From assembly GCA_016287385.1 (NCBI GenBank), contig JAEEWM010000027.1:62001-126000 (forward strand): a DNA stretch of 64,000 nt, in the 5' to 3' direction. Shown one piece after another: positions 1-19,943 of this stretch (position 1 is the first letter of the stretch; every line of letters starts with the position of its first letter). A program made the position numbers and the translations under genes. This DNA is from Clostridiaceae bacterium (lineage in GTDB: Bacteria; Bacillota; Clostridia; Oscillospirales; Acutalibacteraceae). The notes beneath the pieces are model-generated. The model saw nothing but the letters and a program-made list of their open reading frames with translations, was not told the DNA's origin and did not search any database.

Positions 1-1
1 C

Positions 2-3000
2 AAAGCCTACCGAAAGTCTGGAATGTTCCTCGCTGGTGATGATATCCTGCGAGAATCCCACCTTGAAGCCGTCATTATTCTTGGCGGAATTTGTAGAGGA
101 TGAAGAGCTTGAAGCTCCGGAGCCCGACAGAAGCTTTTTACTGAAGGTCTTTGCCGGCGCGTTGGAGCCTGTCGAGAACGCGCCCTCTAAACGTTCGGTG
201 GTATAGAGCGATTCAACGTTGTCCCCAAGATAATAGCCGTTGGGGATATAATCAACCTGTACGGGTATTGTACGGGTGATTTTCTTCATTTCGGTAAGAC
301 TGCCTTCGGCAAATTCGAGAGCGCTTCTGCCTTCAACGATAATATCGAACTTATAAAGCTTCGGCGTTTCCTTGGTGTGAAGCGGTACTCTCGAATCCGG
401 TTCGCCTATGCTGCTGTCGGCGGGCGCTACCGTAAGTACCCTGCCGTTCTCCGATACGGATATCTTATTGTACAAATGCTTTGTGAGATATCCTCTGTCG
501 TCAATGGCGGTGTTTTCTTTATCCCAGACGGTGTAATAGGTGTTCCAGCTGCACCCTTCCGGAAGCGTTAAGGTATAGTTATCACCGACTTTTTCCACCA
601 CAGCGTCAATATAAAGTGCCGAAAGGTCAAGATTCCACGAGAAGTCAAATGTCTCCTGCGGAGCGAGCGTGCCGACTTCAAGCGTATCGGTATATCCGTC
701 CTTACCCCTGAATTTAATGTACTGCGACGGGATATCACGCGATTCTATCCTTACGGTAACGTCGGTGACGTTGTGATTTGCGTTGCCGACTGTCAGGTCG
801 GTGTTCATAATCGCAAGACGGCTTATTATTCTGCCGTTTGTATAGGTTATTTCCACCTCGTCCACCGGATAGTCCGACATAATATCGGGTTTCTCAGATT
901 CATAGGCGCCGCCGTATTTGAGTTTATACATCGCGTCGTCATACGCCTGATTCTTTGAGGTATAGGAATCTATGGTCTTTTCGGTAGATGAAGAAGAAGT
1001 GATAACGAAAAGCTGCTGCTCAACTATTATTTTTTCCGGAATCATATCGATTATCGGGAGAACCTCGATTTGACCGGTAACCGCTTTAAGACCGTTTCCG
1101 GAAACGCTGATATTGTACGTACCCGACGGAATATTAGTGAACTGTACCGTTCCGCCGTTTGACAGGTTACTGCCTACCGTTACGGCGCCGCTTATATCGC
1201 CGGTATACGATTTCGGGTCTATCGGCTGGACGCTGTACGCGGACGATACCGGACCGTAAAGCGTGACTTTACCGTCGGTTATTACCGTTCCGTCGGCGGT
1301 GACTACCTTAATCACCTTGGTGCCGATGGCGTGCGCGGTCACGTAAACCGTCATCGGAATGTACACGGTATCAACTTCATCCGCACTGATTATAAGGGTA
1401 AGGTCATACTTGCTCGCGCTTACGTTTTCCTGCGGCGCGAAGGTTACGGAAATTCTCGCGGCGCCTTCGGCGGTTCCGATATCATAGCCCTTGAAGTAGG
1501 GGTAAACCGTTGTGGTAAGCGCGTCTTCCGAAGGAACGCCGCCCACCGTAACAAGACTTGCCCACGGAACAGAGCATCCGTTCTTATCAACAAGTACGGC
1601 GCTAAGTCCGGTAAGATTACCTGTGCCGAGGTTTACCACTCTGTAACTGAAGGTTTTTGCCTCGCCGGGTGCGGCGGAGGTCTTTACCGCGAGAGGATCT
1701 GTATCGGCGCTCATAAACCCGTCCCCGTCGGAGGCGAGATTAAGGTTTGTTATATCCATAATCGGCTTCGGAACCGTAACCGTAACGCTTATGACCTTAT
1801 CCACCGCGTAGGCGCCCTTATCCGTATCACAGGCAAGTGTAAGAATTATCTCATATTTGCCGGGGAGACATCCGGCAGCGTCTATCTGCATAGTGGCGTC
1901 GATCGCGTTGTACTCTATTCCCTTGCCGTTTACCGATACGCCTTCGGTCACCGCTTCAAGCAGGCTTGCGGTCTTCTTATCCAGCACGAACGCGTGGCCG
2001 CCGGACATAAATTTAATCTGCGGTAAGACGGTATTTCCCGCTTCAAGACTTCTGGACACAGCGCTCACGGTAACGTTGCGCATATCAAGATAACCGATAT
2101 TTTCCGCCGCGCCCTTAACCTTTGTAGTATCGCCGGCGGTGACCGATACATTGTTTCCGGTCGTGAAGTATACGCCGTAAACGTACATATCGGTGCTCGC
2201 AGTGCGGTTTGCACCGGCGTTTTTCACGGTTGCCGCCACTCTCATGGCGCCGCCCGCGTTTGCGGGAAGGACTATCTCACGGCTGTAATTACCGGCGGCG
2301 TCTACATTTGCCGTATATTTCCAAATCTGATCGCCGGTGATGGAAATTTCAATGCTGTCGCCTTCGCTTAACCCTTCGGAAGTACCGCTTACGGTGACGG
2401 TATCGCCGGTCTTGTATACCGCGGAGTCGGTGGCAACCGTCACGCTTACAGCCGGCACGACCTTTGCGTTAAAGGTACAGGCGTCGGTCATTCCGCCAAG
2501 CTCCGCCGTGGCGATTATGCCGCGGTCGCCGAGGCTTATCGCAGTGAGGTCGAGGTATGCGATATAGCGGTCGGTTGAGGTATCGTAAACGGCGGTGGAT
2601 ATTATATCCGTACCGGCCACCATTACCTTTACTACGGCACTCTCGTTATTTGCTTTTCCGTCGGAACGGATAAGCTTTACGCGAACGCGGTTGCCGCTGT
2701 CCTTAGTTAGGTAAGCCGCGTCGTTTTCAACGGAAACGCTTATGCCGTCAGCCACCGTGAGGGTTTCATCGTATCTCACGCCGGAACGCGAGGACATAAC
2801 GATGTTGTACTCCGAATCGGCGAGAGCGGTAAGCGTATACTCGCCGGTGGGCAATACGTTGGCTATCCAGTTAACCGTGGTCTCGGCTATCGCGCCCGGA
2901 AGTACCGAACGGTTGACTACCGACTCGCCTACCAGTACGCCCTGTGCGAAGAGCGATACCTTGAACGCGCCGACCGATTCGCCGGTACCGACGTTTTTAA

Positions 3001-6000
3001 GCGTTATCTTTGTCTGCATATCCGCGCCGAACGCCGCAGTACCCTCGGTCACAAGCTTTGTGACTTTAAGCGCCGGCATGGCACGGCCTTCAAGCACGTT
3101 GCCCTCTATCGCCTTATCTGTATAAGCGTTGTTGAGTTCATTCGACTCGTCGACTGTGGACATCGCGTCACATACGGCGGTAATTCTGCTTGCCGCCTCA
3201 TAATTCTTCCATGTAAATTTAACTTCTTTGGACTCGCCCGCAAGAACTGAACCTATAAGCGCCGCGCCGAGATAGCGTTCGTCGGCGTAATAGGTCACGG
3301 TGGAGCTGTTCTCCGCGGCGGCGTCGCCGATATTCTTCACTATCGCGGTTATTATCGCGTCGGAGCCGTCAACCTCGAGGTTAATGCTCTCTACTGTAAG
3401 GTCCGCTTTTTGCAGAGTTACAGTTCCGAGATTATAGGTCCATGTGTTATCCGCACGGTCTGTGTCAAGCGTGCGCGGATACGGACCGTCCGCCGTGAAG
3501 GTGACGGTCTGCGACTCGCCGTCCTCCGGAACAAAGCTCAGCGTAAGCGTTACCGATTCGCCGGGCGCCAGTGAGGATACCGAAATGCTCGTCGCCCACT
3601 TGCCGTTTATGCGCGCGGTAAGCGGGAACTCGCCGGTATTATCGTTACCGGAGTTCTTAACCGTTACGTTAAAGGATATCGATTTGCCCGAGGCGATATT
3701 CAGCCCTCTTGTCGCCGTCGCGCCGTTTACAAGCGATTTTCCTTCGTATGTGACGGCGGTTATCCCGATGTTCGGGAAAACAGTGCGTCCCGAAGCGCCG
3801 TAAACGATAGCGCTGCGCTGGTTATTGAACATATCCGCTTCTTCAAAAGCTATGGAAACGTCATTTGCCCTTACGGTGTAAACGTGCGACCGGTTATCCG
3901 TGGCGATATCGGTAAATTTGACGTCGGCACACTGAACGGTGCGCTCCTCTCCGCCTATGATATAGGTCTTTTCGTAAACGGACGTTATCCTTTGATATCC
4001 GAGGTAAACGTCATCCTTATAAAGACTCACTACGAACTCGCTGGGGATCGGGTTTTCGGGTTTATCGTTCATAACGCGGGCGAAGATGACTATTTCCTCG
4101 CCGGCGTCTACCGTGTTGGTCCGGGAAACCGGCTGACCGCCGACCGTGATTTCAAGCCCCTTACCTACCGAGCCGGAAAGAATTTCCGGAATTATGATAA
4201 GGTCGGGACGGTCATCGTTTACGGTTACCATTACGTTGTGTACCGCGTAGGAATCCGTAGGCAGATCTTCCGAGTTGTATCCCTTGGTGATAAGGGCGTT
4301 TGAGGTGCCGTTATCGTCGGTGACGGTAAGGGTGGCGATATACGTGCCCGAGGCGGTGTATACGTGAGTAGGCGCAATGCCCCAGCCCGAGGAACCGTCG
4401 CCGAAGTCCCACAGGAAGGTCTTAATCTGACCGTCGGGGTCATAACTGCGCGAGCCGTCGAATACCACCGTCTTATTGACGGTAGCGTTGAAGTCAACGC
4501 CGGCGTTGGCTGTGGGCAGTGCGTTTATGACCGTCTGTGTGCTTACCTGAGATTTTTCGGGGTCAGGCGAAGTTCCGACACGGAATTCGTAAACACCCGC
4601 CGGCATTTCGGCGTTTGCGTAAAGATCAATGTAGAAGTAAACCAGCTGCATACCGTAAGAAGTCACGGTGACCGATTCTTTATCAACAAGGGTGAACTCA
4701 CCGGTCTTTCCGTTCTTAACGGGCGCTCTGTACAGGTAAAGCATTACGCTTTCGGGGTTCTTGCCGGAATTGTATACCGTCGCCTGGACGCCGAGTTTTA
4801 CGGTATCGTCTTCATCGTGGAACCTGCCCGTATCGTAGAAGACGGCGGTACGCTTCAATACGCCTTGATCTTCAAGATAAATTATCTTGCTCGTTTTAAG
4901 CTCGGTGACCGCGGTTGACGAGCCGTAGACCACCTTGTAATAACGCGGCAGAATGTTGCCGTTACTGTCACGGAGGATTTCGTCAACAACATAAAGCAGG
5001 TCCTTTTCCTCGCCGTCTACCGTATAAGTATCTTTCCAGTAATTCGAGAATGAAAGCGACGTCGGTTCATCACTGTAATCGGCAGTCGCGTAACGGTAAA
5101 CCGCCGCTATATTCTCGCGTGCGAAATCAGCCGATTCGCCGATCATGAGTACCTGATACCTGAGCGCCGCGTTCGCGTCGCTCAGAGCGGCGGTATTTAT
5201 CGGAGCCGTGAAGACGTAGGAGTCTTCCCCGCTCTTGTTGCCGCTGAGCCCCTCCGGAACAAAGACGTTGACGCTTACGTTGGTCTCGGTGTTTCGGATA
5301 AACTCGGGCAGACCGTTGGAGCCGACTATTACCGACATCGAATCGATGTACTGACCCGTACTGTCATCAAGCACCTTGACGCTGTCACGCGCCACGATAT
5401 GAGTATTGACTTCGCTTATAAGCGAATCAAGTTCAACACCCTCATAAGGTTTATGAGTTATGGTTGCGGTGAAATCCCTGATAACGCCGTAAACGTCATC
5501 AAGATAGTGCTCTTGAAGCTCGGGCATCTTCCACATTATCGTGAAGTAGCCCCAAACCATATTCGGCAGATCGCCGCCGTCGTCCGCAAGGCCGTTGTTT
5601 ATGCCGGGTATGTCGCCGAGCACGAGACGGAACGAATTGGTGTTATAAGAGCCGAACGAAGAGCTGACTATCTCCCAGGTCGAGACGAGTCCCGAAGTAT
5701 TCGACACGATATCAAGCTGACTTGAATCGAGTATGACATTCTTCGCGACGCCGGTGCCTCCGTTGGTGACCGATACCGCAAGGCGGAAGCTCGCGTTCGG
5801 ATAAATCTTATGCGGCAGGTAATAATCAACGGTGAGCAGCGGCTGCGGGTTTACTCTGATTTCCACCGCGTCGGTCGAAGTGGTTACAAGCTTTCCGTTT
5901 ACCATATAGGTAATGCGGGCAAATACCTGATACGTTCTGCCGGACTCGCCGCCCATTCCGATACCGGGTATTATCTTCCACTTGCCGTTATAGGTCGCGC

Positions 6001-9000
6001 CCGAAGCAATAGCCGAATCGGAAGCGCCCTGAGTCTGAATAATGTATACGTTATCGGTTATGAAAGTTACTTCCTTTGTAACCGGGTCGGTATACTGTAC
6101 GACCACTTCGGTCGTGAGACTTTCAAGACTGTAATTCGGATAGTTATTTGTGATTTTAAGTTCAGCGTCAAACGCCTGACGTTCAAGCGAAGCAGTTTGT
6201 GAAAGCGAAAGCTTAACGATTTCATAAACGCCGCCCGAAGCCGACTCGTCTTTCTTTATTCTTTCGCCGGTTTCGTTCTGGAAGACGAAATAATCAAGCT
6301 CTTCCACCTCGCTGTCGTCCGGCATCTGAATTTCAAGCTGCTCTTTCTTTCCGTTTGCGGTAACAACCTCCATATTGATCTTCTGTTTGCCGGGGTTGTA
6401 GATGGGGACGCGGACCTGCGTAGTCTTCGCGGGATATACGGGAAGTCCCGTATCCTCATCAAAGCTTACGTAACTGCCGGTCACTCTGAGTCCGATTTTA
6501 TTTGCGGACGCACTGCCGTCAATAAAGGTCGGCAGGTCGTAGTATCCCGGCTGTACAAGCAGCTGTACCGTTACGTTTGACATAGCGGGTATTGTTCCTA
6601 TATAACCGCCGCCGACTACCGATATGCCGCTTACGTTACCGTCTATTACCGCTACCGCGTCGATTACGTCGATAAGACTGTGGTTGACTATCCTGGTTTC
6701 AAGCACCGCCGCGCTCTGCATGTTTTTGGCAATAGTGAACCAGGGCATCGTACTGCCGAGGCTCGGCTCGGGTATTTTAACGCCCAGATCTATTGACAAT
6801 TCTATTTCATATTCATCGACTATGGTGGTTTCGGTAACAGTCCAGGTGATCTCAACCGGGTTGGTAATGAGTTCGACTTCCTCATAGACCGGCTGAGTCA
6901 TAGGCATAACCGTAAATTCGCCCGTATAGGTCTGCTTACCCTTTGCCGATACGGTGAAATCGTAAACGCCTATCGGTTTATCATTAAGTGTGGCGATGCC
7001 GTTTTCATCCGTGGTAAGCGAATAATTCAGATAGTATATATTTTCTTTTCCGTTTACATACTGTATGTACGGTTCACGGCCGTAAAGCGTTATGACGGCG
7101 CCGGAAACACTTTCGCCGAAGTCGTCGCGCACCTTGAACTGAACCGAACCGTACTCGAGCGCCGTAACTTCAAGCCCTACCGGTACAGCAAGCGAAACCG
7201 CGCCGTTTGTAACGGTAACGGTATCCTGATATTTGCCGAGCTGTACGGAAGATGTCGGCGCCATGATTACGCTGAAAGTAAGACTCTCGCCGGGTGCAAG
7301 GGTGGTCTTGTCCGGCTCACCCGCTCTTATAAAGCCGAGCGTGCCGTTTTCGACCCTGATGTTTCTCATCGTCGCGATACCCTTGTTGGTTACGGTAACC
7401 GTCTTTGTCACAGTAGAGCCCGGATTTGCCGCGGCGGTTATCGCCTTGGTATCCGCGTAAAGCTTCGGAACGCCCGGTCGCATACTGAGTTTTACCGTGG
7501 CGGTGGCGGAAGCGCCCTCTATTGAGGAGAACTGAATTATGTACTCGGCGCTGTCGGCGCAGTCCTCATCGGTAAAGAAGTTGAGCGCCACCTGGAAGGA
7601 TTCGCCGGCGCCAAGGGTGGATTTGACGGTTGAATAATCAAGCATTGCAGTAATGCCGTCATAATCGTTGCCGTTGAGCAATACCGCCGAAACGCCGGTA
7701 AGGGCGCCGTCGCTGCCGTCCCACGCGCTGTTATAAAGGTTTATCTTTGCGGTGAAATCGGTATTCTTCGCCGCCGTAACGGTAGTGGCGGTGGGCTTGG
7801 TTTCCATACCGTAGATGGTGATATCGCTGCCCCTTATACCGCTGCCGAAGAGCTTTTCAAACGCATAGGCGCTGATGCTCCATTTACCCGCGTCGCCGTT
7901 TACGGCTTTGAACGAGTAGGTGAAATTACCGTTTTCATCAGCGGTGAGGAATATTATCTTTTCGCCGCGATAGAAGTTTTCATAATCCTTCGGCACGTTG
8001 CCGCTTACCTCCGCTCCGTCGGGCAGTCTGTCGCCGTAGTACGGAGCAAGATTCATATCGAGGACTATGGTGCCGGTATACGGTGTGTTGCCCACGCCGG
8101 CGTTACCGGTTATCGTAACCATTTCGCCTACGAAATAGTTGTTCATCGAGGTGCTTACGCTGCCGACGATATCGTCGATAAACATTATCTGGGTATCGTA
8201 CGTCGCAACATAAGAAGCGCCCTGCGCCGAGAAAGTAAGGGTGTACATACCGCTTACAAGTCCCTCGGTGAGTATCGCGCCGGTAAATTTACCTGTGCCT
8301 CTGTCTGTAAGAACCGCTTCACGGAATATGCTGCTGTCCGAATTATATTCGATACGCGCCGATATCATCGCGCCGTCGTTTACGCTTGTAAGCAGTCTGT
8401 CGGGCTTTGAAGCCAGCGACATTTCGCCGCTTACGTCTATCGAATAACTCGAGCCGACAAAGATGTTCGCGCCGAAATCCTCGTCTTCGCCGGTCTTGTT
8501 CGGATTAACTGTAAATTTAAGACCGTCTGTTACGGTAAATTCATAGCTGTAAGCGTAACTGCCAAAGGCGGCATCGACGGTATCCCAGTCAAGCGGTGTG
8601 TAGTAGGTGGTTTCAAAATCGGCGCCGTTGCCCTTTTCAAGGGTTATCATGAGCCGCCAGTTGCCCGAAGAATCGGGTTTCCAGTTAAGTATCTGGACAG
8701 AAGTACTGTTGCCCTGAATACCGTTATAGTTATTGGAAGAAACGGTCTGCCACTTTGTAGGAGCGCCGTCCGAATCGAGTTTGTTTGCCCAGAGTTTAAG
8801 AACGTACGGCTGATAAAGCGTCGCAACGCTTCTGTTGGATACGCGAACGAGGAAGCTCGCGCTGTTGCCCCATTCGACAGTATCGGCGGGAGCCCACGAA
8901 ACGTCGGAGAGCCAGAGATCAGGCTTAATGACGGTAATATTTACAGTATCTTCTGCCGCCTCGGACGCGGTTTCAAGTACCGCGAGGTCCGCGTCGGTCA

Positions 9001-12000
9001 CAACGCTTACGGTATGCACGCCGTCGCTCACTACCCATTTCGCGGTAATTCCCGTAGAGTAAGGAACGCCTTTTTTGAGGGTATCGGCGGCGACTTTAAC
9101 CGTTTTGATAATAGTGCCGTCAATGTAGAAGCGTACGTTTACCGCCTTTGATATATCGGCGTTCGGCGTGAGGGTCGCCGTCAGCGTGAGCGTGCCGCCC
9201 TGCGCTATTCTGCCGCCCGTCATACCTATCGGATATTCTATCTCAAGCCCGGTCGCTATTTCCGCCTTATCAACCGTGAATTCCGCGGTTTCAAACATAA
9301 CCGAGTTATCGCTCGAATCGGTTTCGATGAGAAGCGGGTCGTCCGCGGCGATTATAACGGTATGACGTCCGGCTGTAGGCGTCGCGTAGAAATTGACGTT
9401 TCTTGAAGCGCCTGCCGCAAGAGTCACGGAGGCGGTGTCGCAAAGCGCGCCGTCGATGTAAAGCGAAATATTGAATTTCGCGTTTGCTCTGCCGGAATTG
9501 GCGACGCTTACCGAATAGATTACTTTTTCTTCCGATGTAAGTCTCGCAGTCTTATCCAGCGTGGTGCCGTTTTTCCAGTCACCGTCGGTGACGGTGATTT
9601 CGGCAAAATCGGTTTGCTCGGCGTTGTAGCTGTCTGTTTTGCTGTTGTTCTGCTTATTCGATTCTTTAAGCGTATCAAGCAGGTCGTTAGCCACTATCTT
9701 GATTATCTGCGCGCCAGTTTCGGCGGTATAGGTGAAGGAAACGGTCTTCCCCTCGCCTACCGCGATTCCGCCGCTTACCGTCTGATAACCGCGGTACGTG
9801 CCGTTGAGATAGAAGCCTACGAGGAACGACATATCGGCGGGAACCTCGCCGAAAGCCGAAGCGCTGTTGCTGACCAGCGCGTCAATACGCACGGTGTCGT
9901 TTTCTTTAATGGTGTTTTCGCTGTCGACCGCGGTAAAGTCGCTGTCTGTCGCGCCCATTCTGTAAACCGTGACGGATGATATTATCAGGTCGGGACGCTT
10001 ATCGATTACACGTATTTCCTTCGTAACCGTGGCTGAGGCGCCCCTTTGGTCTGTCGCGGTAAGGGTTATCGTATAGTCGCCGGGGGTCAGATAGCGGTAA
10101 GAAATACTCTTTCCGTTTTTGACCGTGCCGTCGCCCATATTCCACACAAACGTAAGGTTATCGGTCTCGCCTTCGTCAACGTCGCTCGACTGCTCTGCGC
10201 CGAATGTTTCGGTATTGGAGGAATCGACCGTCGCTTTCGCCGTGATTACGGGACGCGGCGCGTGATTCACCGCGTACGGACTCGTCACGATATCCTTTGA
10301 GCACGCTTCCGCGGTAAATGCGAGTGAAGTTGCGTTTTCGGGTACCGTGAAATCAAACGTATATGAATGGTTGCCGGGCGCAAGACCCTCAAAGTCTTTG
10401 CTTGCCACAGTAAGTACGGCGGCGCCGGTATTGACTTTGAGCACCAGCGTACCTGCCGCTTTTGCGGGACCGTTATTTGTAAAGTTAACGGTTATCTTCA
10501 TCGGCTTGCCCGCGGCGGGAACCGCCACGTCGGTCATAACCGACTTGAATTCAATAGTGAATACCGACGTCGGTACGGCGCTTACCGGGCCTACGGGCGC
10601 GGAAACGTTACCCGCCCTGTCGACCGAGCGGAACCAGTAATAATATCTTACTCCGTCGGTAAGCCCGATATCCGAGAAGCTGCCGGAGGCGGTCTCGCCT
10701 ACGCTTTCAAGCGTCAGCGGATCGGCGTTCGGGTCGGTAGAGCGAAGTACGCGGGTATAGTAAACGTCGACCGGTGGCATCCGGAAACTGAGCGTAACAC
10801 AGCCGCCGCTCATCGCGTCCGCCGCCTTCAAATCGTCCGGCGCCGCGGGCGGCAGAGAATCGTACTTGTATTTCGCGTAATACCAAGACGAAGCATAGGT
10901 GGCGCCGCCGTTATTCTCGGCGTTTACGCGCACGGCGAACCAAGCCCCCTCCTCGAGTCCGGCGAGGCTTGAAAAATCTATAACGGTTACCGCCTTAAAG
11001 GCGCTGTGACCTATGCCCGCAAGCATGGTCATATCCACCTCGACGCGCTCAATGCCCTCGGTCACCACCGCGGCGGGATGCCACGTCAGGTTCTCGTTGG
11101 GCTCTTCGGTTGAGTTGGGTCCCATATAGGCGTATTCAAATGTAAAGCGTTTGATACCTATTCTGTCCGACGCAACCGCGGTAAGAGTCAGGTCGCCGTT
11201 AAAGCTTGACGAACGCAGCGGATCAAGATAGATAACGGTAGGCGGTGTTTTCTGCTCACCGGGAAGCGCGGTGACTTCGTTGGAGAAGGCGCCCTCTTCG
11301 CCGCCGGCTATCGCGCATATCTTATATCTGTACGCGACGGTCGGGTCAAGCTCATCGTCGACGTAGACACTTTCTGACGCCGATACGTCGGCAAGAAATT
11401 CATAGGCGCCGTTTGAAAGCGCTCTGTAAATACGGTACCCCGTAACATCAAGGCGCAGTACCGCCTGCCAGCCGAGTGCTATCTTGCGCTCGCCCGGTTC
11501 GGCAATAAGCGAAGCGGGAGCCGCCGGCGTATCGCCGAAAGCGTAAACATTGGTTTTCCACTCGCTCTTATTGCCCGCCGGGTCAAGAACGCGGAAGCGT
11601 AAGAATATATTTTGCGAAGCGCCCGGGCGGACCTTTGAAAGGTCTACCGTAACGTCGGTACCGTTGAATTCGCCGTTATAAAGTTCGGCAAACATGGCGT
11701 TGACGTCATCATAGCTCTTCCACTGAACCTCAACGGAGGATACCTTTACGTTATCGTACGCCGAAACTCTGAACGTCTGTACGCTTGAAATGCACGTTCT
11801 TTCTTCGGGCGTAACGGAGGAAACCGACGGCGCCGTAACGTCTTTGATCATCGAAACGGCTGTATCCGTCACTGCCGGGTCGCTCGTAATCTGCTGACCC
11901 GCCGAGGTCGCAACGGCTACCACGGCGTAGTAATATTCCACGCCCACGCCCGCCAGTATATCGCTGTATGAACGCGATGCGGTTTCGGCAATAAGGTTGG

Positions 12001-15000
12001 CGCTGTTTACTATGCCGTCTTTGACGGTACTCCTGTAAATGAGATATTTTTCGCTGTTGGACACACTGCCCCAGCGAATGCTTATCTTACCGACTTCGGA
12101 GTAGGAGTTGACGTATTCGGGGCTGAAAAGCTTAAGCCCGATTTCGAGATCCTTTACGTTACTGCCGAAGCTGGTGCTGCCGTAATATTCGGCGTAGAAG
12201 TGCTGGGCTCCGAGCCAGCCGGAATCGGTCGCGGGGACGGTGTAGGTGACCGTAGCCGTGCCGTCTGCCGCAAACGTGCCCTCGGCAAACCAGCGTTTAT
12301 AATTATCAACGACTCTGTAAAGCCGTACGATTACGCCTTGTCTTGCCGTCGGCGAAGTTACCTTGAAGGTCAGCGTGTCGCCGAGCATTATGCTGTCAAA
12401 TTCCGCCGCGCCGTTTACCGTAACGGCAATATCGTATTTGGGAACGCCGGCGAAAACAATATTGCTGCACAGGAATTCACTGCGGTTGCCCGCGATGTCC
12501 ACCGCGCTTAAAAGATATACGTAATACCTGCCGGAGGAAAGACTGTTTTCGGCTTTAACAGCCGCCGGTTCGGTGGATATAACACTGTAATAATACTGAC
12601 TTGCGAAAGAAGCCGGGTCGCTTATGAGATTTTGCGCTTTTTGCAGATCTGAAAACTCGTAGCGGCGAACCTCAAGGGCGGAAAGAGTCTCTCCGTTATC
12701 GGGCACGAACCAGTTGACCGACGCCACGAGCCGCTCATAACCGTACTGTGAATCGGGCCCGTTGACCGAGACCGCGGCAGTAAGCGTTCCGCCGCTTATA
12801 TCGGGCGCGAGGTTATCTACCGTTATTTCGGTTTCATAATAGCAGGTAAGCTCCGAAAAATCGGTAACGGTGAGGGTGATTTTGTAAACACCGTCGGGTA
12901 TATAACGCTTTCCGTCGGTGCCGGTAAGCGCCGCGGCGCCCGCGTAATCGCCGAGGTCAAGGGTGTTAAGCGTACCCGACTCATTACATACGGCACCTAT
13001 ATAACCGTTATAATAGTTATACTGATAACTCCAGTAACCGCCGCTTTCGGTATTGTAGGTACGGGTGGCGTAAACGTTGCCCGCCGCGTCAGTCACGGTT
13101 ACGAGGATGGTCTTTATGTAGTTATTGTCGAGCGCGTTGATCTTATAGTTTATTCTGCCGTTTGTATTTGTTCCGGCAAGAACGGTGGTTTCAGCGGTAA
13201 ACGCGCCGGTAGGCGGCGTAACATCGGCAAGCGGCTTGATATTCGCCGACTTTTCTGTCTTATCGCCGAGACCGCCGGTATAAGTGAGCACACACACCTT
13301 GAAATAGTACGAGCCGGTGTATTTTACGGCGTCAAGCGGTACTACAGCGGTGGTAACGCCGGACTGAACGTCGGTTTCGCTGAAAGCGTAATAGTCGTCA
13401 CCCACCTTGTAAGCGTAAACCCTGTAACCGTATTCAGGCGTGCCGTCAAGAACGTCGCCGGGCAAGTTTACCTTGTCCCACGTTACGGTAGCGCAGGCGT
13501 TGCCGGGCGTGACGGTAAGACCGGTCGGCGGATCTATTTTGAGATAGGTGTAAGTGGCTTTCTTTATAACCGACTTGTTCCCGTGATAATCAATCGCATA
13601 CGCGACTATTTCGATGATATCCTCGTTTTTGAGTTCTGTATTTCTGCTGTTATTGTTATAATCGCCATTATTGTTGTAGCGCGTTCTGCTTATCATAATC
13701 GACGCGCTTACGGAAGATATCTTATCCGACGCGTATTCGCCGAGCTGATATCCGCCGTTGTAGCTATACGTATCGGAATTGCTCTTTAACCAACTGCCGC
13801 CGTTTACGCGGTATTCGATGACGACTTCTTTTATAAGCTGGTCGTCTTTGACGTTTACGGATATCACGGAGGAATTATCAACGGTGACCGCGCCGGTGGT
13901 GTTGATGATATCGCTGATTTCGGGCGCGCCGGCGTCGTCAAGCAGTTTGATCGGCGCGGTGGGAAGCGTGGTTACCCAAACGATATCGCTGCCGTCAAAG
14001 ATATCGCTCTGCCAGTTTGTCATTTCCTTCGTGTTGTCCTTGACAAGCCGGACATAGAAGCTGTAATATCTGTCAGGCACAAGATAGTAATAGTTTAACG
14101 ACAGATTGCCGGAAACCGGCAGCATATTACCGTTTGTAAACTCATACGTAAACTCGCCGTTTACTATTTTATCGGTAATATTCACGTCGTATCCGCCGTC
14201 ACTGCGGATATACCAGTACTCTACCTTTGCGTAATCAAGAATGTGATCGAGGAAATCGTTCATCATTTCCTCGGTGAGGTTTTCATTCTTCCAGTAGGAT
14301 ATAAACGCCTCGCAAATATTAGCCCTCGTTTCGCTGTCAAAATACGGCTCAAAGGCTTCAATGTAAAAGCGGTCACTGCCCGCGGTTACGTTAAGGGGAG
14401 CGAGCGGCGCTCTTTTTACGGTGTTCGCGTCAATAGTGAACTGTGAATAGCTCCAATCGGAGACGTTGCCGGCGGTATCGGTGACCCTTATTCCGGCAAA
14501 ATAGGTGCCGGGCTGCGCGTTATGGCAATCATAATGCGCGCGGAACCACATGCCCTCGTTAAAGCGTACGTCGGCTGTCGGGTAATAATACGTCGCGGGT
14601 GCGGGAAGACCGGCGGCTGGTGTGTAAACATAACTGCCCTCAACGCCGCTTCGGGTATAATAGGCGATCTCAATACTGTAAAGTCTGCCGTCATCCTTCG
14701 CCCGGACGTTGGTTTGCCTGTTGCTGTATCCGCCTCTGCTCTCGTTATAAGGTCTTATATCGGTAATAACGGGCGCCTCGGTATCCGCGCCGACAGAGCA
14801 TTCATACTTATACACGTAATCAAGCTCAACGTTGTATTTGCCCGTGGCTTGCTGATACTGTCTTACAGTAAACGTGGGGTACTTTATCGGGTCGATATAG
14901 ACGCGTACTCTTCCGTTTTCGGAGGAGGTACTGCTGTAATCGTAAGAGCCCCTGTCGGTTATGTAATTGCCGTCTTTATCATAGAAATGATATCCGAATC

Positions 15001-18000
15001 TGTAACCGGGTTTCGGTGTCCAGGTAATAACCACGCTCGAGGACTCTTTCGTTACGGTGAAGTCCTGCGGCGCGGGTATATCTTCCGCAACGGCCGTAAA
15101 GGTTCTGAAAGCACTGTTGCCGTTTGCATCGGTTACGGTGTACCTGAACGTATACTCGTTACCGGCGACCAGAGTGCAGTTATACAGAAGCGTTCTGTAA
15201 TATGAGAACTCTTTATCGGTTACGCTGTTGCTGCTGCCGATGCTTACGTATTTTGAATCATCCTCAGAGGATAATTTGTATTCAAGTTTGTATGATTTAA
15301 TTCTTTGATTATCGGTGGCGTTCGCGAATATCGTACACGCATAGGAGATCTTTTCAACCTCAAGATCGCCCGCCTGCAGGAAATAGAACTCGGTAATAAC
15401 CGGATTTTCGTCATCCGCGGGCAAAACGTAAAGCGGATCGGATATTTCGGTTCTGAACCAGCCCTCGTTGCCGTGGCGGTCAAAGACGTTGTAATACCAC
15501 TGATTCCAGTCGGATTTAAGATAGATTTCCGCCACATACGTGTATTCGGTATTGGCTTCGAGATTATCGCTCACGTCGGTGTATTTCCAGTTATCCGCCG
15601 CCCTGATATCCTTTATCGAGGGGTTGTAAGAGCTGTTTCTCGCCCTGCGCCATACACGAACATAATCGTAATTCGCGTTATCTTCAAGGAACGCCTTTAT
15701 GACCGCTTTCGCGTCGGCGGCTGCAGCGCCTTCAAAGCCGGCAATATCAGCGGCGGTTTTGCCCTTTGCGGTAGTAATATACGTATAAAGCTCGTCAACC
15801 GTTTTATCGGAAACGGTGATATCGTTTACGTCTATTTCCATACCGTAAATCTTAGGCGTAACCTTAAGACCGCCAAGGCGCGGATAGGTGTAATCGTCCG
15901 CGTTGTTTTCACGGTGGCAACGCAGGTAAACTATCGCTTTCTGACCGGCGGTTGAATTTGCGGTCGCGGCAAAGGTAAGACGCCAGCTGCCCGCGGTTAT
16001 GAACGGACCGTCGCTATACCAGAGCCCGTCGCTGTACGGGATATTATACCAGCAGTCGTCAACCGTAACGTAAGCGCCGCCGACCAGCTTCTGAAGCCTG
16101 ATATAAGTTTCGCACTCGGAATTGAAGCCGTTTTCGTTTATGGTGCGCAGGCGCTGGAAGAAATATTTTGCCCCGGACGGCACGGTTATATCGACCGCCT
16201 GCGAACCGTCGCCCGCGACTATCGGGATATAATATTCCTCGGACTCCTGACCGTTAGAGGTCACCTCAGGTACCGCGAAAGACTTGATACTCTTTGATAT
16301 AATAAACTGTCTGCCGCGGCTTGAAAGTCCGTTATGAAGCCCGCCGTAATTTGCGCTCCCCTCCCAGACAGCAACCGCGGTAAGAGTAATGTTACGGTCA
16401 ATCGTGAACGGTCCCGTGTATTCGGTAAAATTACTCGCAAGATTAGTGATTTCCGCGTTATATTTGTATGAGTAGTAAAGCTTTGTACCGGTAGATTCGG
16501 TTGAAAGCGTAACCGTAGAACCGCTTACCGTCACAACGGGCATTGCCGGCATACTGTAAATATATCCGTAATTATCAGAGCTGAAGCGGTAAACCTTACC
16601 GTCTACGGTAACGAGCGCGCCGGCTCTTATATGAAAGCCCCAACTCTTTTGATAAATACTGACACCCGCGTGAGCCGCGATATCAGCCAGCCTTATCTGA
16701 CCGGGCGTATACTCGCGGGCATTTTCGGACAGCATGCCGTCGTTGTCGAATACGTTTGCGTAATAATCGTTCGGAATATAGTAATACTTAACGCTAATAT
16801 CCGAACCGGGGAAAAGCTCCGCCAAATCGGGCAGACCTATATAAAGACTGCCGCTCTTATCGTATATTACGTCATAGTCGGTTCCGTTTACGTTGCTCCA
16901 GCCGACCGTGGTTTTTTTGCCTTCGCCGTCGACCGCGTACATATCAAATACGCCTGCGTAAGCAAAAAAGCTTGAATATACGCGCCCAAGCGTACCGGTT
17001 TCGGAGTCGTAAACCGCCGCTTTTACTTTTACGCGCGGTTTTTCTCTGCCCACGTATACCACACTGCTGCCGCGGCTCGCCGTCGCGCTTGAAAGCGTGG
17101 GGTCAGCCGGAATTGCGCCGTCGGTAGTATAGTTATAGTAAACAACGGCGTTTTCTTTTACGGTATCAAGATACAGGTAGTATCCGCGGTCAGAAACGTA
17201 TTTTTCACCCGGTTCCTTTACCGAACCGGCAGTAAAGAAGACCTTATCCTCCGGATCAACCGCGATATTCTTTACGTTTATGCGGTATACGTTATTGCGG
17301 TCGCACCTGATAACCAGCGTATAACTGCCGGCGGGAACCGCGACGTTCTTATAATAGTGTGTGTATCCGTTGGCAGCGTAACTGTCAAATGTTCTCGATA
17401 TACTGCCGTCGGAGTTGGTTATGTAAGGCGTATAAACGTCGTATCCGCTATAGCCGTCCGGGTCGACGTTTTCACATAACATATCAAAGGAAACAAGAGC
17501 CGGTTCCGTTACGGTGAAGGTGACTTCCTGGGTGTTTTCGGTATAAGTTCCGGCTTTATCAGCCAAATTGCTTACATAAAATTCAAACGTAGAGTTGCCC
17601 GATGAATAAGGCAAGGAAAGCGTGCCGAGGGCGTAGCTGCCGCCGTCGGCGAAAAGTTCGGACACGGCGGAATACTTGCCGTCGTTATAAGCTACCGCGC
17701 GCACAAGGCGGTTGAGCCCGCCAAGCGAAAACGGAGCGGAGTATGCCGTTCTCGTAGCGGAGGATATCGGGTCACTGCCGTCAACGGTGTAATAAACCGT
17801 ACCGATGTCGCATAAAACCGTAACGGTACCGCCCGAAACGGAAATCTCGGGAGCGGCGCCGGTAACGGTGATCTCTCTTTCGGCAACGTTACCTTCTATA
17901 TAGTTTGAACCGTCGTTCAGGACGGAATACGCCTTAACCGTGATTACGTCGCCCTTCTGATAGCCTGCCGTACTGATAGGACCGGTATATAAAGAAGCGG

Positions 18001-19546
18001 AAGACTTGGGGTTTCCGCCGTCAAGGGTATAGTAAATGTTTTCGGTATATCCGTCCGGAATACCGATACATTCTATTGTTATCGAAGACGCCGCGGTACC
18101 GCCGCCCTCACCGTCGCCGGAAATCACGGTATTGCCGACGCGGGCAAGCGCCTTTTCAAATATAATGAACGAACCGTCCGCGCCCGCGTAACCGGCACGG
18201 GCTCTTGTATCGTACAGTATGGCGTAAAGCGCCACGTCGTCGGCGTTTATATCCCCATTAACTTTAATACGCCTATTATCGTTGTCGAAGTATCTGGTCC
18301 AGCCGGTGGTGGAATTGGTGCTTCCTGTTTTTCCTATTCCGTAGTATACGGCGTTAAAGCTTCCGCCGTAAAGTATTTTAGCGCTTAAAGTGCAGGGATA
18401 ATAAAGTGCCTCTCCTCCGTCGGGATAAGTTGAGAAAACAACGGTAGGAGTAAGCGTGAAATCGTAAGTGCCCTCTGAAACCGGCGAAGTGTATATCGGT
18501 TGACCTTGCTTACAGTAAACACAAATACCCTTATAGTTTAAGGAAACGTTGCCGGTAAGGCTGTCGAGATAATCGTTTAAGTAGCCCGGCTCGCTATCCG
18601 CAAGGCGGAAATCGTAATCCGCCTCGCCCGGCGTACCGGCTTCGCCGTCAACCGCGACTTTAATATAATAGGTTTGCGTTATATTTGAGGAAGTCGCACC
18701 CGTAAGGTTCAGATAATCTGTCATCCTTACGTTGTAGTTTCCCGCTGCGCCGTAAACACCTATGCGACGTTCGCAGTCAAGCTCCCAGAAGTTTGTGCTT
18801 ACAAACGTGCCCTTTATGGCTTTGCCGCTCGCGTCGGTCATGACCGCGCCCACACGCGCGTAATTATCATTGAACTGTATACTTACGTTATCCGTGTACT
18901 CCGTCCAGCCGCTGTCGGGTGCAGTGAAATCAAACGCCGGATTTGCCTTGTACGCTTCAATGGCGGCGTTCGAGCCGGTAAAGTATACACGTGCCCCTTC
19001 GGGCTCGTTCGAGGTGATTACGGTAACGGTATCGTCAGGCGTAAGATAGTATTCATTCGCAAGCTCACTGCTGCCCCACCGAGCATAAAGTCCGCTTCCG
19101 GTGCCGAAGGTGATTTTAGGCGAATAGGGTGAGTTTTCATCGAAATCGTTTTCGGGGTCAATAGCGGGGTCTTCTTTCGGCGTGCCGGGACTGAGCGGAG
19201 TGGTGCTGTCGCCCGATTCCGCCGACACGGTATCGTCCCTTGTTCCGGGCGCGTCAAGGCGCGGCGTATCAGCAGGCGCAAAGCGTATGGGGATACCCGA
19301 AACAACCGGCTCGCCCGTAACCTCGGCGCCGTCATCAACTTCGCCGTCGGCGCCGCTGCCGCCTTCATCCTTTCCCGTTATGTTCTGAGCGTTACCGTCG
19401 GCAACACTTTCGCCGTAAACCGGGTCCGCTGTATCGGCTCCGGCGGAATCGGCGATCGCGGGTGTGCTGAAGCACACCCCGGAGGTCAGCGCAACCGCGA
19501 GCAGTAACGCTAATCCTTTACTCAGTAATCTTTTCTTTTTGAACAT
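2..19546 (-). CDS. Giant secreted/cell-surface multidomain protein (FN3, chitobiase-C-like, PKD, CARDB, carboxypeptidase-regulatory-like modules), C-terminus truncated by window edge
   Basis: Starts ATG at 19546 (MFKKKRLLSKGLALLLAVALTSGVCFSTPAIADSAG..., signal peptide). The same frame is still open at bases 2-4 (...GFKVGFSQDIITSEEHSRLSVGF). About 6,515 codons read with no stop noticed. Not in the ORF track because there is no stop inside the window. Contains PKD motifs such as FLWDFGDGSSGWG...HVYTASGTYIATLTVTDDNG. Confidence 0.9.
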   Translation of the reverse strand, partial: MFKKKRLLSKGLALLLAVALTSGVCFSTPAIADSAGADTADPVYGESVADGNAQNITGKDEGGSGADGEVDDGAEVTGEPVVSGIPIRFAPADTPRLDAPGTRDDTVSAESGDSTTPLSPGTPKEDPAIDPENDFDENSPYSPKITFGTGSGLYARWGSSELANEYYLTPDDTVTVITSNEPEGARVYFTGSNAAIEAYKANPAFDFTAPDSGWTEYTDNVSIQFNDNYARVGAVMTDASGKAIKGTFVSTNFWELDCERRIGVYGAAGNYNVRMTDYLNLTGATSSNITQTYYIKVAVDGEAGTPGEADYDFRLADSEPGYLNDYLDSLTGNVSLNYKGICVYCKQGQPIYTSPVSEGTYDFTLTPTVVFSTYPDGGEALYYPCTLSAKILYGGSFNAVYYGIGKTGSTNSTTGWTRYFDNDNRRIKVNGDINADDVALYAILYDTRARAGYAGADGSFIIFEKALARVGNTVISGDGEGGGTAASSITIECIGIPDGYTENIYYTLDGGNPKSSASLYTGPISTAGYQKGDVITVKAYSVLNDGSNYIEGNVAEREITVTGAAPEISVSGGTVTVLCDIGTVYYTVDGSDPISSATRTAYSAPFSLGGLNRLVRAVAYNDGKYSAVSELFADGGSYALGTLSLPYSSGNSTFEFYVSNLADKAGTYTENTQEVTFTVTEPALVSFDMLCENVDPDGYSGYDVYTPYITNSDGSISRTFDSYAANGYTHYYKNVAVPAGSYTLVIRCDRNNVYRINVKNIAVDPEDKVFFTAGSVKEPGEKYVSDRGYYLYLDTVKENAVVYYNYTTDGAIPADPTLSSATASRGSSVVYVGREKPRVKVKAAVYDSETGTLGRVYSSFFAYAGVFDMYAVDGEGKKTTVGWSNVNGTDYDVIYDKSGSLYIGLPDLAELFPGSDISVKYYYIPNDYYANVFDNDGMLSENAREYTPGQIRLADIAAHAGVSIYQKSWGFHIRAGALVTVDGKVYRFSSDNYGYIYSMPAMPVVTVSGSTVTLSTESTGTKLYYSYKYNAEITNLASNFTEYTGPFTIDRNITLTAVAVWEGSANYGGLHNGLSSRGRQFIISKSIKSFAVPEVTSNGQESEEYYIPIVAGDGSQAVDITVPSGAKYFFQRLRTINENGFNSECETYIRLQKLVGGAYVTVDDCWYNIPYSDGLWYSDGPFITAGSWRLTFAATANSTAGQKAIVYLRCHRENNADDYTYPRLGGLKVTPKIYGMEIDVNDITVSDKTVDELYTYITTAKGKTAADIAGFEGAAAADAKAVIKAFLEDNANYDYVRVWRRARNSSYNPSIKDIRAADNWKYTDVSDNLEANTEYTYVAEIYLKSDWNQWYYNVFDRHGNEGWFRTEISDPLYVLPADDENPVITEFYFLQAGDLEVEKISYACTIFANATDNQRIKSYKLEYKLSSEDDSKYVSIGSSNSVTDKEFSYYRTLLYNCTLVAGNEYTFRYTVTDANGNSAFRTFTAVAEDIPAPQDFTVTKESSSVVITWTPKPGYRFGYHFYDKDGNYITDRGSYDYSSTSSENGRVRVYIDPIKYPTFTVRQYQQATGKYNVELDYVYKYECSVGADTEAPVITDIRPYNESRGGYSNRQTNVRAKDDGRLYSIEIAYYTRSGVEGSYVYTPAAGLPAPATYYYPTADVRFNEGMWFRAHYDCHNAQPGTYFAGIRVTDTAGNVSDWSYSQFTIDANTVKRAPLAPLNVTAGSDRFYIEAFEPYFDSETRANICEAFISYWKNENLTEEMMNDFLDHILDYAKVEYWYIRSDGGYDVNITDKIVNGEFTYEFTNGNMLPVSGNLSLNYYYLVPDRYYSFYVRLVKDNTKEMTNWQSDIFDGSDIVWVTTLPTAPIKLLDDAGAPEISDIINTTGAVTVDNSSVISVNVKDDQLIKEVVIEYRVNGGSWLKSNSDTYSYNGGYQLGEYASDKISSVSASIMISRTRYNNNGDYNNNSRNTELKNEDIIEIVAYAIDYHGNKSVIKKATYTYLKIDPPTGLTVTPGNACATVTWDKVNLPGDVLDGTPEYGYRVYAYKVGDDYYAFSETDVQSGVTTAVVPLDAVKYTGSYYFKVCVLTYTGGLGDKTEKSANIKPLADVTPPTGAFTAETTVLAGTNTNGRINYKINALDNNYIKTILVTVTDAAGNVYATRTYNTESGGYWSYQYNYYNGYIGAVCNESGTLNTLDLGDYAGAAALTGTDGKRYIPDGVYKITLTVTDFSELTCYYETEITVDNLAPDISGGTLTAAVSVNGPDSQYGYERLVASVNWFVPDNGETLSALEVRRYEFSDLQKAQNLISDPASFASQYYYSVISTEPAAVKAENSLSSGRYYVYLLSAVDIAGNRSEFLCSNIVFAGVPKYDIAVTVNGAAEFDSIMLGDTLTFKVTSPTARQGVIVRLYRVVDNYKRWFAEGTFAADGTATVTYTVPATDSGWLGAQHFYAEYYGSTSFGSNVKDLEIGLKLFSPEYVNSYSEVGKISIRWGSVSNSEKYLIYRSTVKDGIVNSANLIAETASRSYSDILAGVGVEYYYAVVAVATSAGQQITSDPAVTDTAVSMIKDVTAPSVSSVTPEERTCISSVQTFRVSAYDNVKVSSVEVQWKSYDDVNAMFAELYNGEFNGTDVTVDLSKVRPGASQNIFLRFRVLDPAGNKSEWKTNVYAFGDTPAAPASLIAEPGERKIALGWQAVLRLDVTGYRIYRALSNGAYEFLADVSASESVYVDDELDPTVAYRYKICAIAGGEEGAFSNEVTALPGEQKTPPTVIYLDPLRSSSFNGDLTLTAVASDRIGIKRFTFEYAYMGPNSTEEPNENLTWHPAAVVTEGIERVEVDMTMLAGIGHSAFKAVTVIDFSSLAGLEEGAWFAVRVNAENNGGATYASSWYYAKYKYDSLPPAAPDDLKAADAMSGGCVTLSFRMPPVDVYYTRVLRSTDPNADPLTLESVGETASGSFSDIGLTDGVRYYYWFRSVDRAGNVSAPVGPVSAVPTSVFTIEFKSVMTDVAVPAAGKPMKITVNFTNNGPAKAAGTLVLKVNTGAAVLTVASKDFEGLAPGNHSYTFDFTVPENATSLAFTAEACSKDIVTSPYAVNHAPRPVITAKATVDSSNTETFGAEQSSDVDEGETDNLTFVWNMGDGTVKNGKSISYRYLTPGDYTITLTATDQRGASATVTKEIRVIDKRPDLIISSVTVYRMGATDSDFTAVDSENTIKENDTVRIDALVSNSASAFGEVPADMSFLVGFYLNGTYRGYQTVSGGIAVGEGKTVSFTYTAETGAQIIKIVANDLLDTLKESNKQNNSKTDSYNAEQTDFAEITVTDGDWKNGTTLDKTARLTSEEKVIYSVSVANSGRANAKFNISLYIDGALCDTASVTLAAGASRNVNFYATPTAGRHTVIIAADDPLLIETDSSDNSVMFETAEFTVDKAEIATGLEIEYPIGMTGGRIAQGGTLTLTATLTPNADISKAVNVRFYIDGTIIKTVKVAADTLKKGVPYSTGITAKWVVSDGVHTVSVVTDADLAVLETASEAAEDTVNITVIKPDLWLSDVSWAPADTVEWGNSASFLVRVSNRSVATLYQPYVLKLWANKLDSDGAPTKWQTVSSNNYNGIQGNSTSVQILNWKPDSSGNWRLMITLEKGNGADFETTYYTPLDWDTVDAAFGSYAYSYEFTVTDGLKFTVNPNKTGEDEDFGANIFVGSSYSIDVSGEMSLASKPDRLLTSVNDGAMISARIEYNSDSSIFREAVLTDRGTGKFTGAILTEGLVSGMYTLTFSAQGASYVATYDTQIMFIDDIVGSVSTSMNNYFVGEMVTITGNAGVGNTPYTGTIVLDMNLAPYYGDRLPDGAEVSGNVPKDYENFYRGEKIIFLTADENGNFTYSFKAVNGDAGKWSISAYAFEKLFGSGIRGSDITIYGMETKPTATTVTAAKNTDFTAKINLYNSAWDGSDGALTGVSAVLLNGNDYDGITAMLDYSTVKSTLGAGESFQVALNFFTDEDCADSAEYIIQFSSIEGASATATVKLSMRPGVPKLYADTKAITAAANPGSTVTKTVTVTNKGIATMRNIRVENGTLGFIRAGEPDKTTLAPGESLTFSVIMAPTSSVQLGKYQDTVTVTNGAVSLAVPVGLEVTALEYGSVQFKVRDDFGESVSGAVITLYGREPYIQYVNGKENIYYLNYSLTTDENGIATLNDKPIGVYDFTVSAKGKQTYTGEFTVMPMTQPVYEEVELITNPVEITWTVTETTIVDEYEIELSIDLGVKIPEPSLGSTMPWFTIAKNMQSAAVLETRIVNHSLIDVIDAVAVIDGNVSGISVVGGGYIGTIPAMSNVTVQLLVQPGYYDLPTFIDGSASANKIGLRVTGSYVSFDEDTGLPVYPAKTTQVRVPIYNPGKQKINMEVVTANGKKEQLEIQMPDDSEVEELDYFVFQNETGERIKKDESASGGVYEIVKLSLSQTASLERQAFDAELKITNNYPNYSLESLTTEVVVQYTDPVTKEVTFITDNVYIIQTQGASDSAIASGATYNGKWKIIPGIGMGGESGRTYQVFARITYMVNGKLVTTSTDAVEIRVNPQPLLTVDYYLPHKIYPNASFRLAVSVTNGGTGVAKNVILDSSQLDIVSNTSGLVSTWEIVSSSFGSYNTNSFRLVLGDIPGINNGLADDGGDLPNMVWGYFTIMWKMPELQEHYLDDVYGVIRDFTATITHKPYEGVELDSLISEVNTHIVARDSVKVLDDSTGQYIDSMSVIVGSNGLPEFIRNTETNVSVNVFVPEGLSGNKSGEDSYVFTAPINTAALSDANAALRYQVLMIGESADFARENIAAVYRYATADYSDEPTSLSFSNYWKDTYTVDGEEKDLLYVVDEILRDSNGNILPRYYKVVYGSSTAVTELKTSKIIYLEDQGVLKRTAVFYDTGRFHDEDDTVKLGVQATVYNSGKNPESVMLYLYRAPVKNGKTGEFTLVDKESVTVTSYGMQLVYFYIDLYANAEMPAGVYEFRVGTSPDPEKSQVSTQTVINALPTANAGVDFNATVNKTVVFDGSRSYDPDGQIKTFLWDFGDGSSGWGIAPTHVYTASGTYIATLTVTDDNGTSNALITKGYNSEDLPTDSYAVHNVMVTVNDDRPDLIIIPEILSGSVGKGLEITVGGQPVSRTNTVDAGEEIVIFARVMNDKPENPIPSEFVVSLYKDDVYLGYQRITSVYEKTYIIGGEERTVQCADVKFTDIATDNRSHVYTVRANDVSIAFEEADMFNNQRSAIVYGASGRTVFPNIGITAVTYEGKSLVNGATATRGLNIASGKSISFNVTVKNSGNDNTGEFPLTARINGKWATSISVSSLAPGESVTLTLSFVPEDGESQTVTFTADGPYPRTLDTDRADNTWTYNLGTVTLQKADLTVESINLEVDGSDAIITAIVKNIGDAAAENSSTVTYYADERYLGAALIGSVLAGESKEVKFTWKNYEAASRITAVCDAMSTVDESNELNNAYTDKAIEGNVLEGRAMPALKVTKLVTEGTAAFGADMQTKITLKNVGTGESVGAFKVSLFAQGVLVGESVVNRSVLPGAIAETTVNWIANVLPTGEYTLTALADSEYNIVMSSRSGVRYDETLTVADGISVSVENDAAYLTKDSGNRVRVKLIRSDGKANNESAVVKVMVAGTDIISTAVYDTSTDRYIAYLDLTAISLGDRGIIATAELGGMTDACTFNAKVVPAVSVTVATDSAVYKTGDTVTVSGTSEGLSEGDSIEISITGDQIWKYTANVDAAGNYSREIVLPANAGGAMRVAATVKNAGANRTASTDMYVYGVYFTTGNNVSVTAGDTTKVKGAAENIGYLDMRNVTVSAVSRSLEAGNTVLPQIKFMSGGHAFVLDKKTASLLEAVTEGVSVNGKGIEYNAIDATMQIDAAGCLPGKYEIILTLACDTDKGAYAVDKVISVTVTVPKPIMDITNLNLASDGDGFMSADTDPLAVKTSAAPGEAKTFSYRVVNLGTGNLTGLSAVLVDKNGCSVPWASLVTVGGVPSEDALTTTVYPYFKGYDIGTAEGAARISVTFAPQENVSASKYDLTLIISADEVDTVYIPMTVYVTAHAIGTKVIKVVTADGTVITDGKVTLYGPVSSAYSVQPIDPKSYTGDISGAVTVGSNLSNGGTVQFTNIPSGTYNISVSGNGLKAVTGQIEVLPIIDMIPEKIIVEQQLFVITSSSSTEKTIDSYTSKNQAYDDAMYKLKYGGAYESEKPDIMSDYPVDEVEITYTNGRIISRLAIMNTDLTVGNANHNVTDVTVRIESRDIPSQYIKFRGKDGYTDTLEVGTLAPQETFDFSWNLDLSALYIDAVVEKVGDNYTLTLPEGCSWNTYYTVWDKENTAIDDRGYLTKHLYNKISVSENGRVLTVAPADSSIGEPDSRVPLHTKETPKLYKFDIIVEGRSALEFAEGSLTEMKKITRTIPVQVDYIPNGYYLGDNVESLYTTERLEGAFSTGSNAPAKTFSKKLLSGSGASSSSSSTNSAKNNDGFKVGFSQDIITSEEHSRLSVGF
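3105..3415 (-). other. CARDB-like domain within giant protein
   Basis: ADLTVESINLEVDGSDAIITAIVKNIGDAAAENSSTVTYYADERYLGAALIGSVLAGESKEVKFTWKN...VDESNELNNAYTDKAI; typical CARDB D-L-x...N-x-G...ESNExNN pattern. Others at ~3800-4215 and ~9625-10000. Confidence 0.7.
4290..4520 (-). other. PKD domain within giant protein
   Basis: NALPTANAGVDFNATVNKTVVFDGSRSYDPDGQIKTFLWDFGDGSSGWGIAPTHVYTASGTYIATLTVTDDNGT. Confidence 0.8.
10005..10270 (-). other. PKD domain within giant protein
   Basis: PRPVITAKATVDSSNTETFGAEQSSDVDEGETDNLTFVWNMGDGTVKNGKSISYRYLTPGDYTITLTATDQRGASATVTKEI. Confidence 0.8.
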
Positions 19547-19616: not shown

Positions 19617-19897
19617 TGCGCAATATATCCGCTTAAAGATACATCACACCTATTTTACCTTTATCATTTTAGCATAAACAGTTTCATATATCAAGAATTT
19701 ATTTTGTGCGAAATGATAAAAATCAGAACCGTAAAAACCAAAATCAGAGGTCTTTACGGTTTTTTCTTAAATCAACAGGTCAAAAACGGTCGGCTTTCAA
19801 CGGCTTTTACGCGATTTTCAAATCATATGACACCTTTTTAACCGTATCAGGTTTTTATAACACAGCATAATTATTCAAATCGGAAAGAAAAAAAGCG

Positions 19898-19938: not shown

Positions 19939-19943
19939 TTACT

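Follow-up and report, generated by a model that had tools for sequence, protein, structure and literature searches.

CLOSEST DESCRIBED SYSTEMS

Cohesins and dockerins are best known as the glue of cellulosomes, the machines that degrade cellulose. The experimental precedent for a noncatalytic dockerin protein carried on a single surface-anchored cohesin is CttA on ScaE in R. flavefaciens (PMC5301203). CttA is secreted, reportedly promotes bacterial adhesion to the substrate, and is held by ScaE, an envelope-anchored protein with a single cohesin (PMC5301203, PMC3672088). The locus described here lies in a window of 64,000 nucleotides (the whole stretch of DNA analyzed, C2:62001-126000) from the small genome of an uncultured Clostridia bacterium (assembly G000; 1.86 Mb in 27 contigs, 99.97% complete), and it encodes a protein of 8,363 aa (~0.905 MDa), referred to below as the giant. 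Like CttA, the giant is a noncatalytic secreted protein with a C-terminal dockerin, and its candidate partner is also a single-cohesin, envelope-anchored protein. The two systems differ in that CttA has two carbohydrate-binding modules and an X-dockerin with three insertions, whereas the giant has no recognized carbohydrate-binding or X module in its 8,363 aa; the stretch before its dockerin, the position of an X module, gives weak beta-sandwich matches only. In addition, ScaE is anchored via LPXTG and sortase, whereas the candidate anchor of the giant is a transmembrane helix.

Three other systems share some of these features. Lachnoclostridium sp. MSJ-17 is presumably noncellulolytic, with only one dockerin-bearing glycoside hydrolase of the plant-biomass type; it resembles our genome in its up to 39 dockerin proteins and its single cohesins with C-terminal transmembrane helices, but it also has one two-cohesin scaffoldin (PMC11557425). 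The FN3-rich scaffoldins of Clostridium pasteurianum and Clostridium sp. CT7 are likewise long beta-sandwich chains with a dockerin end (PMC11557425). They have 30 FN3 repeats and a cohesin-dockerin type II end, the partners of which are not known (PMC11557425), whereas the giant has no cohesin and its dockerin is of a type I form common to ~20 proteins. Finally, the giant open reading frames (ORFs) of Omnitrophota are also very large, have few annotated domains, and have been suggested to act in cell-cell adhesion (PMC10066038). Omnitrophota are another phylum, and their giant ORFs are mostly poorly conserved, one of them carrying nine noncellulosomal dockerins (PMC10066038); the giant, in contrast, has one C-terminal dockerin, strong cross-species conservation, and cohesin partners in its own genome. 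Because Omnitrophota ORFs of up to 39,678 aa have been reported (PMC10066038), the placing of the giant among the largest bacterial surface proteins in a preliminary description of this DNA was too strong, while the same description's reading of a giant, secreted, modular, noncatalytic protein stands. Each of the ingredients is thus known; what is new is a conserved 8,400-residue noncatalytic protein together with a shared C-terminal dockerin and single-cohesin anchors.

THE GIANT AND ITS MODULES

The preliminary description had noted a minus-strand frame, from position 19546 to position 2 and off the window edge, that had escaped the ORF track. The frame has 6,515 codons without a stop; it is listed only when open-ended ORFs are allowed, which is why it is not seen in an ordinary ORF track. 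The plus-strand ORFs of at least 150 aa inside the gene are few and scattered, consistent with their earlier interpretation as antisense shadows. Once the contig stretch to the left was joined, as had been proposed, the frame extended 5.5 kb beyond the window edge to a stop at C2:56455 (window -5545), giving a protein larger than first seen. The 8,363-aa frame has no internal stops, and the chance of an open frame of this length is ~10^-174 (at 3 stops per 64 codons). The features of the gene are as follows (window positions).

1..19546, minus strand: giant gene, first 6,515 of 8,363 codons, the rest lying left of the window to C2:56455 (window -5545)
19666..19694, minus strand: promoter-like site TTGATA-17-TAAAAT upstream of the giant, a consensus match only, of a kind whose count barely exceeds that in shuffles
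19448..19546, minus strand: Sec-type signal peptide, MFKKKRLLSKGLALLLAVALTSGVCFSTPAIA, read by eye
17660..17833, minus strand: CHB_HEX_C_1/Fn3_assoc module, residues 572-629 (Pfam)
11270..11521, minus strand: fn3 module, residues 2676-2759 (Pfam)
10010..10267, minus strand: PKD_4 module, residues 3094-3179 (Pfam)
6824..10210, minus strand: super-repeat copy A, residues 3113-4241, with PKD, CARDB, HYDIN/ASH-like Ig, and CarboxypepD_reg-like modules
4553..6808, minus strand: unnamed block between the super-repeat copies, residues 4247-4998
989..4468, minus strand: super-repeat copy B, residues 5027-6186

The modules first described as chitobiase-C-like, FN3, PKD, CARDB, and Ig-like are identified by Pfam as CHB_HEX_C_1/Fn3_assoc, fn3, PKD, CARDB, and Big-type Ig. 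The lack of a recognized catalytic domain now extends to all 8,363 aa (Pfam). In addition to the modules listed, there is a second CHB_HEX_C_1/Fn3_assoc copy within residues 1-800, a further PKD at residues 5008-5084, and CARDB in three stretches within residues 3201-4000 and three within 4801-5600 (all Pfam); the HYDIN/ASH-like Ig module (residues 4042-4113) and the CarboxypepD_reg-like module (residues 4138-4216) have Pfam scores near or below the cut-off. The two super-repeat copies, ~1,100 residues each, align with an hhalign probability of 98% (E 4.6e-14) and are also matched by blastp. No carbohydrate-binding or ligand-binding domain was found in the giant at curated cut-offs (a CBM39 match is weak, with an E of 0.09 only), and nothing exceeded the cut-off in an NCBIfam search.

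The unnamed block lies within the best-conserved part of the giant (80-87% identity between orthologues). Residues ~4435-4795 (window ~5160-6240) have matches of 26-31% in Eleftheria terrae, Nostoc, and Methylomonas; the match in Eleftheria terrae adjoins type II secretion genes and a cohesin-domain protein, and that in Nostoc is a 4,599-aa Calx-beta protein. These residues represent an unnamed module common to several phyla. Residues 6820-7630, separated from the dockerin by ~670 residues, are predicted with low confidence to be all helical, and searches of Pfam, NCBIfam, PDB sequences, and the plasmid collection found no relative of this block. A profile search of the conserved core (residues 4001-4900) against PDB sequences gave one chance-level match only. 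With four input sequences only, structure prediction reached a mean pLDDT of 46 for the helical block and 36 for the core. Because both structure predictions are of low confidence, the extended shape that we infer for the giant rests on the Pfam modules and predicted secondary structure.

Several observations concern the flanks of the gene. A hairpin is visible by eye after the giant's stop; because the terminator scan did not list it, we claim no terminator there. About 400 bp upstream of the giant, at window 19943-19974 (C2:81943-81974), lies the 3' part of a truncated tRNA-Thr with a downstream terminator-like sequence, which could be the trace of an integration event; an intact tRNA-Thr is found from C6:38714 onward. 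Farther away, window 30790-31040 holds short imperfect repeats (TTTATGTCCGATT.AGTCTTTATTGA ... GGGACGTAAAGTCCTATTTTACATAAG) in an intergenic region left of a tRNA-Arg.

A DOCKERIN AND ITS CANDIDATE SOCKETS

How might such a protein be held at the cell? A search for a C-terminal anchor had been proposed at the outset, and what it found is a dockerin: the last 62 residues of the giant form a type I dockerin, with Dockerin_1 at residues 8302-8355 scoring 45.2 bits against a curated cut-off of 22.9. We reject anchoring of the giant itself by LPxTG, SLH, or a transmembrane helix; LPxTG occurs nowhere in the giant, SLH has no Pfam match in it, and the signal peptide is the sole segment of the whole protein with a hydrophobicity above 1.7 (19-residue mean), no second hydrophobic segment being present at the C terminus or elsewhere. 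Both calcium-loop F-hand repeats of the dockerin read DxNGDG..NNKDL. Symmetric dockerin repeats go with dual-mode binding in other species (PMC5301203), and with NNKDL in both repeats the giant's dockerin might, purely by analogy, bind in the same fashion.

The genome has 29 Dockerin_1 matches and 3 Cohesin matches, all above cut-off (24.1 bits for the Cohesin profile). The three cohesin proteins, which have one cohesin each, are all encoded on the giant's contig.

Window 28052..28813, minus strand: anchoring cohesin protein, 253 aa, with a signal peptide and one cohesin (41.3 bits versus 24.1)
C2:51884-52576: cohesin-dockerin adaptor, 230 aa, fourth gene downstream of the giant
C2:18703-19866: third cohesin protein, with no obvious anchor

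The 253-aa protein has a transmembrane helix from ~residue 217 (hydrophobicity peak, 3.49) and a KKRVAKK tail, and AGGAGG stands shortly 5' of the ATG of its gene; a relative of solved structure was not found by sequence. With a cohesin and a C-terminal transmembrane helix, it belongs to the class of NonSLH anchoring scaffoldins, defined by at least one cohesin and attachment to the cell envelope, for instance by a C-terminal transmembrane helix (PMC11557425). The adaptor, with one cohesin and one dockerin, falls in the class of monovalent adaptor scaffoldins (PMC11557425), and its dockerin is of the giant's type (57/62 positions identical). Between the giant and the adaptor are a HisKA_7TM gene, a histidine-kinase-like gene, and a gene for a NarL-type response regulator (L003:10659-14290, C2:52659-56290). 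These three genes are absent from the closest species (G267), where purE directly follows the giant.

An intact 8,363-aa frame, a signal peptide, a dockerin, an anchored cohesin, and conservation are all present in the sequence, and we propose that the giant is probably a very long, noncatalytic surface fiber or adhesin whose dockerin attaches it to a membrane cohesin, either directly or via the adaptor. In this model, the gene would give rise to a secreted, rod- or string-like protein of ~0.9 MDa, made up of many beta-sandwich modules and the helical block. The dockerin, with calcium, would plug into the single cohesin of the small membrane protein at 28052-28813, holding the giant noncovalently at the surface; docking via the adaptor would be an alternative route. 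The N-terminal part of the giant, being free, would extend well away from the cell to serve as an adhesin or fiber, and the socket would be common to the giant and ~20 other, mostly nonenzymatic dockerin proteins. We infer that the giant's dockerin pairs with the cohesins of this genome, specificity being a property that cannot be read from family membership; an adhesive role, with a corresponding ligand, is likewise presumed.

It is also conceivable, if unlikely, that the giant is released as a secreted matrix or biofilm protein, its dockerin serving only to cross-link it to the cohesin-dockerin adaptor. That the adaptor bears both a cohesin and a dockerin is consistent with this possibility, as are two orthologous loci (G268 and G269) in which the gene next to the giant, on the same strand after 15 and 14 bp, respectively, encodes a protein with cohesin, Big_2, and dockerin and no membrane anchor. 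These neighbors are homologous (49% identical); of the two, the G269 protein has a cohesin above the Pfam cut-off, and the G268 protein aligns with it. The two loci also speak for the proposed docking of the giant into a cohesin. A route to the surface nevertheless exists in the giant's own genome, because the gene for the transmembrane-anchored cohesin lies 8.5 kb upstream of the giant.

OTHER DOCKERIN PROTEINS AND THE CELLULOSOME QUESTION

The giant's type of dockerin is found in 19 complete proteins, the giant included, and in one protein with leucine-rich repeats and an M23 peptidase domain; one more copy is cut by a contig end. Outside the giant, these dockerins are identical to its own at 46-58 of 62 positions, and the dockerin stands at the very C terminus in 17 of the 19 proteins. 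BspA-type leucine-rich repeats in four proteins, the adaptor's cohesin, and one List_Bact repeat are what Pfam finds in the 18 others; otherwise, none has a Pfam domain above cut-off except the dockerin. One of them is encoded close to the giant.

Window 24483..27827, minus strand: 1,114-aa secreted protein, its C-terminal dockerin matching the giant's at 55 of 62 positions; Pfam finds no further domain

The leucine-rich-repeat protein (L056:2850-4565) has an internal dockerin of the giant's type, and its M23 domain is the sole catalytic domain found among the proteins with this dockerin. No glycoside hydrolase occurs among the 20 complete proteins. The view that there are no carbohydrate-active enzymes at all fell once two GH5-like proteins and one GDSL/CE2-like enzyme were found to bear dockerins, which are unrelated to that of the giant (at most 11/62 identity for the GH5-like proteins). 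In one such protein (L047:3713-9631; 1,973 aa), a GH5-like domain is found together with a calcineurin-like phosphoesterase and with an internal dockerin of a different type.

Could the giant be a structural subunit of a plant-fiber-degrading cellulosome, that is, a scaffold that targets the substrate and delivers dockerin enzymes to a polysaccharide? The dockerins and cohesins of the genome, the GH5-like domains in two dockerin proteins and the GDSL/CE2-like domain in one, and the origin of the closest species in water-buffalo reticulum all speak for this reading, which we nonetheless consider improbable. The giant cannot collect dockerin enzymes because it has no cohesin of its own. No multicohesin scaffoldin was found in the genome among the three proteins above cut-off, a search by which highly divergent cohesins could be missed. 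Nor were many dockerin-borne glycoside hydrolases found: among the dockerin proteins scanned there are the two GH5-like proteins, and their dockerins are of other types.

CONSERVATION AND DISTRIBUTION

The full-length orthologues identified have 8,396 aa in G241 (of the same genus), 8,399 aa in G268, and 8,378 aa in G269, and there is a partial one (L061) in the water-buffalo reticulum genome (85% identity over 2,617 residues); the named relatives are metagenome-assembled Clostridia. An assembly artifact is very unlikely because the full-length pairs are ~70-72% identical in alignments nearly without gaps and because the giant and its orthologues (five of five) all end in a dockerin. Identity between orthologues is 76-88% over residues ~3000-5200. 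Over the whole gene, pN is 0.17-0.19 against a pS near 0.69; windowed dN/dS is roughly 0.05-0.16, only a rough guide because dS is near saturation. Repeat collapse is ruled out and not a concern, because the portion of the gene inside the window is free of tandem repeats and direct DNA repeats are almost absent. The source is an uncultured genome in 27 contigs, but the idea that the giant frame is an assembly fusion or a decayed gene is, as far as sequence can do so, already refuted, and its likelihood would appear negligible given the intact, nearly gap-free frames in three other assemblies, a pN far below pS, and the lack of tandem repeats. Because ~8,400 residues are conserved nearly without gaps, the data suggest that the length and module order of the giant matter for its function.

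Across the genus, a cohesin match is found in 68 of 70 genomes and a dockerin match in 67 of 70. The giant's core is present in only 2 of the 70, which makes the giant an accessory of the cohesin-dockerin system and not one of its core parts. Among 200 sampled genomes of the family, the helical block was found in one, and among 396 of the order again in one, if a weak 47-position match is left aside; each time this was the genome of the window itself. No dockerin frame listed for the genus exceeds the giant in length, and the second-longest of those listed has 3,896 aa. The giant gene has purE as its neighbor in G267 and, after the adaptor cluster, in G000; in G241, G268, and G269 its surroundings are different. 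Simple vertical descent fits poorly, in that purF of G000 is 88% identical to that of G241 and 72% to that of G268, whereas the giant is 72% identical to its G241 orthologue, no higher than with G268 (71%). Transfer or old paralogy of the giant is therefore possible, judging from one housekeeping gene, purF.

IMPLICATIONS

In a genome of 1.86 Mb, ~20 proteins carry one type of dockerin, most of them have no other known domain, and their partner is probably a small membrane-anchored cohesin. We speculate, tentatively and with less conviction than for the surface attachment of the giant, that this genus has adapted the cohesin-dockerin pair as a general plug-and-socket means of giving a small cell a coat of nonenzymatic proteins, in which the giant would be the longest fiber, and that this coat may serve contact with cells or a host and not the degradation of plant fiber. 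If the pairing holds, uncultured bacteria would offer a surface-display system that can be tested directly, and the conserved 0.9-MDa fiber would be its most striking cargo.
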